Below, piece by piece: positions 3,628 to 45,315 of a stretch of 64,000 nucleotides of DNA. The position numbers and the translations under genes are program-made. How positions within the stretch are numbered: the first letter of the stretch is position 1; every line of letters begins with the position of its first letter. Source of the stretch: an uncultured Bizionia sp. (lineage in GTDB: Bacteria; Bacteroidota; Bacteroidia; Flavobacteriales; Flavobacteriaceae); the NCBI GenBank assembly GCA_947496215.1, contig CANMCF010000002.1:496001-560000 (forward strand), in the 5' to 3' direction. Under the pieces are notes generated by a model. The model saw only the letters and a list, made by a program, of their open reading frames with translations. It had not been told where the DNA came from and did no database searches.

Positions 3628-4881
3628 CTATATTTCAAAAGCGGCTTTGACTTTGTCTACATAGTCCAATTTCTCCCATGTGAACAATTCCACATCTATG
3701 GTCTTTGGTTCCCCATTGGGCTGAGAAAATGTTTTGGTAACTGTCGTGTTGGCCCTTCCCATATGTCCATAGGCAGCAGTTTCACTATAAATGGGGTTAC
3801 GCAGTTTCAAACGAGATTCTATGGATGCTGGACGCATATCGAAGATTTTCGAAATCTTTTCTGCTATTTCTCCATCCGTCATATTAAAAGGGCAAGTTCC
3901 GTAGGTGTCCACAAAGATTCCCATAGGTTCTACGACTCCAATGGCGTAGGATACCTGTACTAAGATTTCATCACAAATACCAGCAGCTACCAAGTTCTTG
4001 GCAATGTGCCTGGTCGCATAGGCAGCGCTTCTGTCTACTTTGCTAGGGTCCTTACCAGAGAATGCGCCTCCACCGTGAGCTCCTTTGCCTCCATAGGTGT
4101 CTACAATGATCTTACGACCAGTTAAACCTGTATCGCCGTGAGGGCCACCAATAACAAATTTTCCGGTAGGGTTTATATGATATTTTATGTCATTATTGAA
4201 CAAAGCTTTTAAATGTTCAGGTAATTTGGATACGACACGAGGAATTAAGATCTCAACAATGTCCTTTCTGATTTTTGCCAACATGGTATCATCTTCGTCA
4301 AAGTCGTCATGTTGTGTGGATACGACAATGGCATCGATACGTTGTGGTATGTTGTCGTCACTGTATTCGATGGTTACCTGACTCTTGGAATCCGGCCTCA
4401 AGTAAGTGATGTCCTTGTTCTCCTTGCGCAATTCTGCCAATTCGATCAAGATCTTGTGGGATAGATCCAAAGCCAAAGGCATGTAGTTTTCTGTCTCCCT
4501 CGTTGCATAGCCAAACATCATTCCTTGGTCTCCTGCGCCTTGCTCTTCTTTACTTTCTCTGTCCACACCGCGGTTGATGTCGTCCGATTGCTCATGGATA
4601 GCGCTGAATACACCACATGAATTACCATCAAACATATATTCGCTTTTGGTGTAGCCAATTTTATTTATGGTATCCCTAGCAATTTTTTGAACATCCAGAT
4701 AAGTTTTGGATTTTACTTCTCCGGCCAATACAACCTGTCCTGTTGTAACCAAGGTTTCACATGCCACTTTGGAATCCTTGTCGAAAGCAAGAAAGTTGTC
4801 AATTAATGCATCACTGATTTGATCTGCTACTTTATCCGGGTGTCCTTCAGAAACACTTTCTGAGGTAAATAAATATGCCAT
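3628..4881 (-). CDS. metK: S-adenosylmethionine synthetase
   Basis: This 417-residue cytosolic enzyme makes S-adenosylmethionine from methionine and ATP. It has the N-terminal ATP motif GHPDK (residues 13-17), the family signature [12 protein letters not shown], and the glycine-rich phosphate loop GGGAFSGKD. Length and ends fit a full member of the family. It is transcribed alone, from a promoter at 5044-5051 through a SAM-II type riboswitch, so it is very likely shut down by its own product. The start at 4881 directly gives the conserved N-terminus ([16 protein letters not shown]). Confidence 0.98.
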
Positions 4882-4929
4882 TATGTAATTATTTTAGTCA
4901 GAGGATTTGACGAAAACGTCGAAGGAAGT

Positions 4930-5032
4930 TTACACTGCCTTTAGCATTTAATTCCAAATTGATCTAGAGCTGTATTCAATGACCCCGTAAATCAATTTGA
5001 AGAGGTTGCAATCAGTCAAATCCTTCCTCTTT
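4930..5032 (-). promoter_or_regulatory. SAM-II type riboswitch (long-loop variant) in the metK leader
   Basis: Read on the minus strand, stem P1 is formed by AAGAGG (5031-5026) and CCTCTT (5005-5000). Its loop contains GATTTGACTGATTGCAA, very close to the SAM-II (metA motif) core. The 3' part ATGCTAAAGGCAGT (about 4948-4934) supplies the conserved GCTAAA and the pseudoknot partners: GCA with TGC, and ACTG with CAGT. Between them sits an extra hairpin with perfect 9-bp arms (CAAATTGAT 4999-4991 and ATCAATTTG 4963-4955), as known for the long-loop SAM-II variants of Bacteroidota. Downstream, GTCAAATCCT (4911-4902) is perfectly complementary to AGGATTTGAC inside the aptamer (5024-5015). This gives a plausible expression platform close to the metK start codon. 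Confidence 0.85.
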
Positions 5033-5043
5033 TTATTAGGCGT

Positions 5044-5051
5044 CAAAAGTA
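5044..5051 (-). promoter_or_regulatory. metK promoter -7 element
   Basis: The minus strand reads TACTTTTG, an exact TAnnTTTG match. It ends about 12 bases before the first riboswitch stem, so the transcript would begin with the aptamer. No clear -33 TTG was seen at the usual distance. Confidence 0.6.
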
Positions 5052-5128
5052 CATATAATATTAAGATTATAAAATAGAGATTTAAACTAATTTCATTTAA
5101 AATTTTGGAGGTCAAGCAAGAAACAAAA

Positions 5129-5153
5129 AAAGCCATTGCGAAGGCAATGGCTT
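5129..5153 (-). terminator. Terminator of the alanine-rich lipoprotein gene
   Basis: The hairpin AGCCATTGC-ctt-CGCAATGGCT on the minus strand is followed by a T run, 27 bases after the stop codon at 5180. Confidence 0.85.
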
Positions 5154-5179
5154 TAGTGACTTATAATTTAAGTGGAGAA

Positions 5180-5566
5180 TTATTTTTTCTTCAACTCGTC
5201 AGCCTTTGCCTTGGCATCATCCACAATTTTGTTAGCAGCTTCTTTCGTAGTGTCTGCAGCATCTTCAACAGCAGCTTTTGCATCTCCTGCAACATCTCCT
5301 GCAGCATCTACAGCTTTATCTACAGCTTCTCCTGCAGCATTTACAGTTTCTTCTACAGCTTCTACAGCATCTCCTGTAGCTTCAGCAGCATTTTCTACAG
5401 CGTTCTCAGTAGCTTCAACTGCATTTTCTACAGCATCGCCAGTAGCTTCAGCAGCATTTTCTACAGCATTTTCCGTAGCATCTGCATTTTCTTTTACATC
5501 TCTACAAGAAGTGAACGATACGCTTAGTGCTAACAATAAAGTAGCACTCAATAATAATTTTTTCAT
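5180..5566 (-). CDS. Alanine-rich repeat lipoprotein
   Basis: The start at 5566 is chosen because it begins a clean lipoprotein signal (MKKLLLSATLLLALSVSFTS, then Cys21); the open frame extends further upstream but that part has no signal character. The mature part, about 107 residues, consists almost wholly of A, E, D, N, V, T and K in an 11-residue-like helical rhythm. It contains a repeated block, ENAVENAAEATGDAVE, that occurs twice in succession. It resembles LEA-like or coiled amphipathic helices; no catalytic motif is seen. It is expected to be anchored in an envelope membrane. A stress or envelope-stabilising role is possible but is inference only. The gene is monocistronic with its own terminator. 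Confidence 0.85.
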   Translation of the reverse strand: MKKLLLSATLLLALSVSFTSCRDVKENADATENAVENAAEATGDAVENAVEATENAVENAAEATGDAVEAVEETVNAAGEAVDKAVDAAGDVAGDAKAAVEDAADTTKEAANKIVDDAKAKADELKKK

Positions 5567-45170: not shown

Positions 45171-45253
45171 GCGTTACCCTAAAGGGGGGCAGGCTTTCCG
45201 CTGTATCTTTTTTGCCAAAAGACAAAAAAGAATGCCGCTTCAATCCTTAACGC
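45171..45253. repeat. Structured intergenic element, possible Flavo-1-like RNA or REP element
   Basis: The outer arms GCGTTA (45171-45176) and TAACGC (45248-45253) enclose GGCTTTCCGCT, a long A/T stem (ATCTTTTTTG with CAAAAAAGA) and GCCGCTTCAATCC. The combination of GGGCTTTCCGCT and CGCTTCAATCC(C)TAACGC recurs between genes in many Flavobacteriaceae and resembles, from memory, the Flavo-1 RNA motif. The familiar orientation is the plus strand, opposite to the operon it sits in. Confidence 0.5.
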
Positions 45254-45315
45254 GGGATTTTGATTAAAGTTAACAATTACTTTTCAATTAATGATGTGTC
45301 TAATCAAGTTTGATA

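Follow-up and report, generated by a model that had tools for sequence, protein, structure and literature searches.

Passages in Corbino 2005 (PMC1273637) and Barrick and Breaker 2007 (PMC2258182) describe the S-adenosylmethionine (SAM)-II riboswitches of alpha-Proteobacteria as a P1 stem plus a P2 pseudoknot associated with methionine and SAM genes, proposed to work as OFF switches and often accompanied by putative intrinsic terminators. According to a passage in Scheuer 2022 (PMC9373788), the SAM-II element of S. meliloti metA acts at the translational level, and the true start codon lies at a distance. For Bacteroidetes, SAM-II long loops (RF01726) were reported by Weinberg 2010 (PMC2864571), where the main-text passages do not describe an expression platform and the details are placed in an additional file. 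Here, we analyze an element of this kind in the leader of metK in a 64,000-nucleotide (nt) stretch of contig CANMCF010000002.1 from an uncultured Bizionia sp., hereafter the window.

With the long-loop family this leader shares a covariance-model match (just short of the gathering score), the Bacteroidetes host and, going by the family's name and Rfam description, a long loop, here an insert between P1 and the pseudoknot strand; with the alpha-proteobacterial elements it shares P1, the P2 pseudoknot and a SAM gene downstream, whereas intrinsic terminators are no more frequent in such leaders than in shuffled sequences. In contrast to S. meliloti metA, Bacteroidetes genes lack Shine-Dalgarno sequences (passages in PMC6847099), and the window carries an additional strand complementary to the aptamer core (anti-core) and an anti-pseudoknot hairpin (H1). 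Judged from its sequence, the leader is probably a SAM-II-class, SAM-responsive OFF switch for metK with an anti-aptamer platform. The literature searched, which did not extend to supplements and subscription papers, nowhere described an expression platform for SAM-II in Bacteroidota, from which we claim no absence, and offered few accounts of riboswitch control over genes that lack Shine-Dalgarno sequences.

The SAM-II aptamer upstream of metK

All leader elements lie on the minus strand, and their coordinates, given in the numbering of the window, were verified by script (Table 1). The initial annotation had proposed a SAM-II long-loop riboswitch before metK, and the covariance model bears this out. 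Its match falls 0.1 bit below the curated gathering score and is thus absent from a gathering-level scan of the window, probably because of the 45-nt insert. Genome-wide, the metK-leader aptamer ranks first in a covariance-model search (E 8.2e-7, runner-up E 0.119), and two relatives of the same genus score 50.1 (L119) and 43.9 bits (L120). The conserved SAM-II core GAUUUGACUGAUUGCAACC and strand AAUGCUAAAG are both found in the leader, with one extra G after the strand, and the hallmarks P1 (6 base pairs, bp) and P2 pseudoknot (ACUG/CAGU) are both present. The register of P2, which we take to be CAGT at 4937-4934 with ACTG at 5016-5013, is our own reading of the sequence in the light of SAM-II structure; the RF01726 model as shown in Rfam carries no pseudoknot annotation. 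The aptamer lies in the leader of a SAM gene, its match ending 49 nt before the metK ATG, and the inserted hairpin with perfect 9-bp arms that had also been annotated is confirmed, each pair having a probability of at least 0.99.

Of 397 sampled genomes of the family, 373 match RF01726, as do all three genomes of the genus and 99 of 148 genomes in an order sample that includes family members. The re-search covered 80 of the 137 lower-scoring family genomes, a choice tilted to weaker scores, plus high scorers among the matches listed. Screening of 242 loci with a pattern that allowed only substitutions recovered the aptamer in 191; the 51 pattern-negative loci comprise 45 from the MetK homologue set and six from SAM-II match loci, and at least L039, L052, L123, L141 and L145 are pattern misses in which cmscan finds SAM-II. 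metK accompanies the aptamer in 187 of the 191 pattern loci, but as metK was the reason for retrieving 34 of these loci, we quote the aptamer-fetched loci instead, where metK lies downstream in 154 of 157. Removal of two duplicate leaders reduced the 187 to 185 distinct leaders. Among 30 further loci, the pattern missed eight and the other 22 all carried metK, giving 206 leaders in total once one duplicate was discarded. The aptamer itself is therefore nothing unusual within a family already described; the interest lies in the platform that follows it.

Some relatives depart from this arrangement. Three loci (L016, L027 and L204) have no metK downstream of SAM-II within the stretch examined, and at least seven small-genome relatives have two SAM-II matches (G004, G052, G081, G239, G281, G290, G298). 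In Euzebyella saccharophila (L089), metK is preceded by SAM-II and followed after ~75 nt by an S-box (SAM-I, RF00162, 74.3 bits), the two switches lying at L089:1348-1430 and L089:2832-2951. This contrasts with a 2007 survey, a passage of which reports no species with both the SAM-I and the SAM-II class (PMC2258182).

Anti-core strand and alternative hairpins

The strand GTCAAATCCT, whose end lies 20 nt upstream of the metK ATG, is the exact complement of AGGATTTGAC in the aptamer core. This 10-nt complementarity and the mutually exclusive folds that it implies had been pointed out in the initial annotation, and the coordinates were confirmed; when the window's post-pseudoknot region was dinucleotide-shuffled 5000 times, complementary runs of at least 10 nt arose in just 8 shuffles. 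Our analysis adds elements not annotated before: H1, a competing hairpin H2 and, in other lineages, a complement to the start site.

H1 joins the pseudoknot 3′ strand to ACUUCCUU. Its frame occurs in 49 of the 205 leaders scanned, and 44 of these 49 have a GNRA loop in seven different sequences, which is hard to explain from the sequences without an H1 hairpin. H2 and the anti-core helix are mutually exclusive because GUC is common to both. The H2 pattern GACG-N3-6-CGTC is present in 53 of the 69 leaders carrying the motif GTCARATC, compared to 0.5% after shuffling of the 16 nt upstream. From the overlaps, three exclusions follow in the sequence: H1 against P2, the anti-core strand against the binding core, and H2 against the anti-core helix. 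In a prediction that includes neither pseudoknot nor ligand, the leader adopts almost wholly H1 plus the anti-core helix (nine of the ten anti-core pairs at 0.94-0.97, P1 near 0), and hand-drawn anti-aptamer and aptamer folds come to −25.7 and −17.2 kcal/mol, respectively. With the anti-aptamer fold dominating the prediction, SAM would therefore probably have to act during transcription. In the pseudoknot strand itself, members of the window's group carry an additional G (4938 in the window; AAAGGCAG versus AAAGCAG), which also lengthens H1.

The complementarity is widespread. A post-pseudoknot complement of at least 8 nt to the aptamer strand is found in 110 of 185 distinct leaders versus 6.9% of 3700 shuffles, and one of at least 10 nt in 46 of 185 versus 0.8%. 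Among the 60 closest leaders in a MetK tree, the window included, 44 carry GTCARATC and 49 a complement of at least 8 nt (5.3% in shuffles). The 8-mer ends 18-37 nt from the ATG (median 21, 69 leaders; 22 in the window). The aptamer variant TTTGAC is accompanied by GTCAAA in 71 of 144 leaders but other variants in 0 of 61, and TTTGGC by GCCAAA in 5 of 17 versus 1 of 188. Beside the GTCARATC core, matches at core-1 (47/69 versus 38 permuted, p 0.0008) and core-2 (43/69 versus 37, p 0.019) exceed permutation, those at core-3 and core-4 (69 leaders) do not, and the duplex energy of own versus swapped strands is −17.3 versus −15.3 kcal/mol, own pairs beating the median swap in 132 of 185, although neither permutation nor swap takes account of relatedness.

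That last restriction weighs against the proposed switch, as do the following results and some on the output given below. Sixteen of the 60 nearest leaders lack GTCARATC. TTTGTC is never accompanied by GACAAA (0/18), nor TTTGGA by TCCAAA (0/2), and TTTGAA has TTCAAA in 3 of 24 leaders, while TTTGAC leaders carry TTCAAA in 18 of 144. A tree-based pairs test of covariation, which is underpowered, gave one supported pair only. For the 10-bp pairing, the covariation looked for on the suggestion of the initial annotation did not materialize: in an alignment of 49 like leaders (A1), six of the ten pairs never vary, both sides of one outer pair are changed in three leaders, and the score is not above shuffles. 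Of the 49 leaders, 32 form the outermost pair and 38 the next (broken in 17 and 11), and the H1, H2 and anti-core helices are all conserved without covariation. Since the variant counts follow lineages and the tree test had one supported pair, we do not call the complement proven covariation. The conserved unit is GTCAAATC rather than the whole 10 bp.

A1 holds 49 of 55 leaders, six having been excluded for a divergent H1 (L010, L030, L034, L154, L207, L211). The 55, in which H1, H2 and the anti-core strand are kept together, were preselected for GTCARATC and an H2-like hairpin with a slightly looser pattern than that behind the 53 of 69. Invariance of the corresponding columns in A1 thus reflects selection, and the 60 nearest leaders are the unselected test.

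We infer the following course of events. Transcription would begin just upstream of P1. With SAM present as the pseudoknot strand emerges, P1 and P2 would close around it, and H2 would hold the later anti-core strand, blocking invasion. When SAM is scarce, H1 would capture the pseudoknot strand and 4911-4902 would pair with 5024-5015; the binding site would be destroyed, the A-rich stretch before the ATG would stay single-stranded, and metK would be made.

Table 1. Features of the metK leader in the window.
Feature	Position	Strand	Basis or remark
Promoter box, TAnnTTTG type, TACTTTTG	5044..5051	-	Motif; transcription start predicted ~5039
SAM-II (RF01726) aptamer with inserted hairpin	4931..5035	-	cmscan 43.9 bits, E 2.8e-7; gathering score 44
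P1 5′ strand AAGAGG, partner 5005-5000	5026..5031	-	Four inner pairs invariant in 49 leaders
Aptamer core strand AGGATTTGAC, anti-core target	5015..5024	-	Script check
P1 3′ strand CCTCTT, partner 5031-5026	5000..5005	-	Covariance-model match, script check, alignment
Inserted hairpin (long loop), arms 4999-4991 and 4963-4955, nine perfect pairs	4955..4999	-	Pair probability 0.99-1.0
Pseudoknot (P2) 3′ strand AAATGCTAAAGGCAGTG	4933..4949	-	Model match; 99% of cells paired in 49 leaders
H1 anti-pseudoknot hairpin AAGG-C-AGU-GUAA-ACU-U-CCUU	4922..4941	-	Pair probability 0.81-0.98; GNRA loop in relatives
H2 hairpin GACG-UUUU-CGUC, sharing GUC with anti-core strand	4909..4920	-	Script check; −4.5 kcal/mol
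Anti-core strand GTCAAATCCT	4902..4911	-	Exact complement of 5024-5015 (AGGATTTGAC)
A/T-rich spacer of 20 nt including A-rich initiation stretch	4882..4901	-	Unpaired past first few bases in predicted SAM-free fold
metK, S-adenosylmethionine synthetase, 417 amino acids, ATG 4881	3628..4881	-	Open reading frame; MetK relatives

Output of the switch

Several outputs were considered and rejected. A pattern scan of 4800-5300 found no terminator-like site between aptamer and ATG, in agreement with the initial annotation, and among 206 leaders intrinsic terminators between pseudoknot and ATG number two, equal to the shuffle rate (1%), so that a terminator-type platform is rejected. A platform sequestering the start site is rejected for the window as well, where the longest complement to the start site is 5 nt, a length reached by 26% of shuffles; none of the 49 like leaders has one of 7 nt or more (maximum 6). 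In other lineages, the strand after the pseudoknot is complementary over at least 10 nt to the start-adjacent stretch in 19 of 206 leaders versus 1.0 expected (for instance L018, L011, L129 and L089), at least three of the 19 (L057, L068, L233) being runs of A and T only. There, SAM binding would free a strand able to cover the A-rich stretch before the ATG, and a passage in PMC6847099 reports such stretches as favoured in initiation in Flavobacterium johnsoniae. That the freed strand pairs with the beginning of the metK coding sequence (+1 to +60) is rejected, too: 7-nt matches occur in 7 of 69 GTCARATC leaders (8.4 expected), not above shuffles, and 6-nt matches in 34 of 69 show a slight excess over the 26.9 expected. 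An upstream mini-open reading frame at the AUG of the pseudoknot strand is rejected on account of its unconserved length over 206 leaders, with four codons in 27, five in 34 and three or 6-37 in the rest, apart from 35 without a stop before metK and 25 without an AUG at that place.

The initial annotation held control of translation to be likely. The direction of predicted accessibility agrees with it: for −12 to +5, accessibility goes from 0.63 to 0.58 over 53 leaders, from 0.83 to 0.68 in the window and from 0.72 to 0.53 and 0.66 to 0.52 in two others of its genus. The direction of this modelled shift fits repression of translation but its size is small, and for the group the claim is unproved. 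A drop from 0.59 to 0.44 (occlusion) in 25 leaders is circular, as this group was hand-picked by start-site complement. We hold that the final step being reduced translation initiation is an evenly balanced proposal.

The same sensor could instead end in Rho-dependent termination, a tentative alternative that we consider rather unlikely. Here, the SAM-bound state would leave 4933-4902, a C-rich and G-poor strand, largely single-stranded to load Rho, and the SAM-free state would tie it up in H1 and the anti-core helix. With neither an intrinsic-terminator excess nor a start-site complement of 7 nt or more in the group, an output that reads the freed strand is attractive. In line with this, C and G make up 19.6% and 10.3%, respectively, of the post-pseudoknot sequence across 206 leaders, and C exceeds G by 7 in the 52 nt before metK, which 5 of 50 open reading frames of at least 150 amino acids reach, in a baseline made of the window's mechanical open reading frames only and with metK probably among the five. 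However, C richness is expected from pairing with the purine-rich aptamer strand, the skew is mild, and the free strand is short and partly foldable as H2. Moreover, among the papers listed in a literature search, PMC12121620 included, titles and abstract beginnings report no such output. A three-helix, kinetically decided SAM-II platform without a terminator and with an unhidden start codon, in which SAM would expose the C-rich strand for Rho or a nuclease in a phylum that initiates without Shine-Dalgarno pairing, seems doubtful.

Alternatively, the anti-core strand might only tune SAM affinity or speed the unfolding of the aptamer, with the pseudoknot itself hindering ribosome loading. Although the small change in start-site accessibility and the short distance from aptamer to ATG would suit this, it is improbable given that H1, H2 and the anti-core strand are kept together and that the GTCARATC-ATG spacing is similar across leaders. 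That the complementarity arose by chance or simply follows from a pyrimidine-rich composition, as the lack of covariation among the 49 like leaders might suggest, is very improbable. It is already disfavoured by the comparisons of the 185 and of the 60 nearest leaders with shuffles, which preserve composition, and also disagrees with the window's own shuffles and with the retention of GTCARATC in nearest leaders.

Genomic context and significance

The consensus position of TAnnTTTG boxes is −12 to −5 (a passage in PMC9723704). Of 205 leaders, 193 carry such a box no more than 70 nt ahead of the aptamer core, usually at 24-31 nt, compared to 5.2% in mononucleotide shuffles. Upstream, a terminator-like site at 5154-5129 (minus strand), the sole one in the scanned region, separates the promoter box from the preceding gene, and metK is therefore probably transcribed alone. 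The small protein encoded by this gene (5635-5180, minus strand) begins with a signal-like segment and contains repeats rich in Ala and Glu (ENAVENAAEATGDAVE). The best 80 MetK-homologue loci, one of them incomplete, show 73-91% identity, and the best named relatives are Flavobacteriaceae such as Gaetbulibacter, Winogradskyella and Yeosuana. Early metK codons (4847-4863, minus strand) contain the hairpin-forming sequence TCAGAAA-GTG-TTTCTGA, in which, over 206 leaders, one of three synonymous pairs matches above permutation (p 0.009; others p 0.08 and 0.72). Elsewhere in the window, a Flavo-1 RNA motif (RF01705, 50.8 bits) lies at 45183-45269 (minus strand).

Thus, metK is almost always preceded by SAM-II in the sampled family genomes, and in the window's group this aptamer is followed by a conserved dual anti-aptamer, H1 and the anti-core strand; some lineages have a start-site complement, the window's group none. 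Such natural variants allow one to ask how a ribosome that does without Shine-Dalgarno sequences, or Rho, reads a riboswitch.
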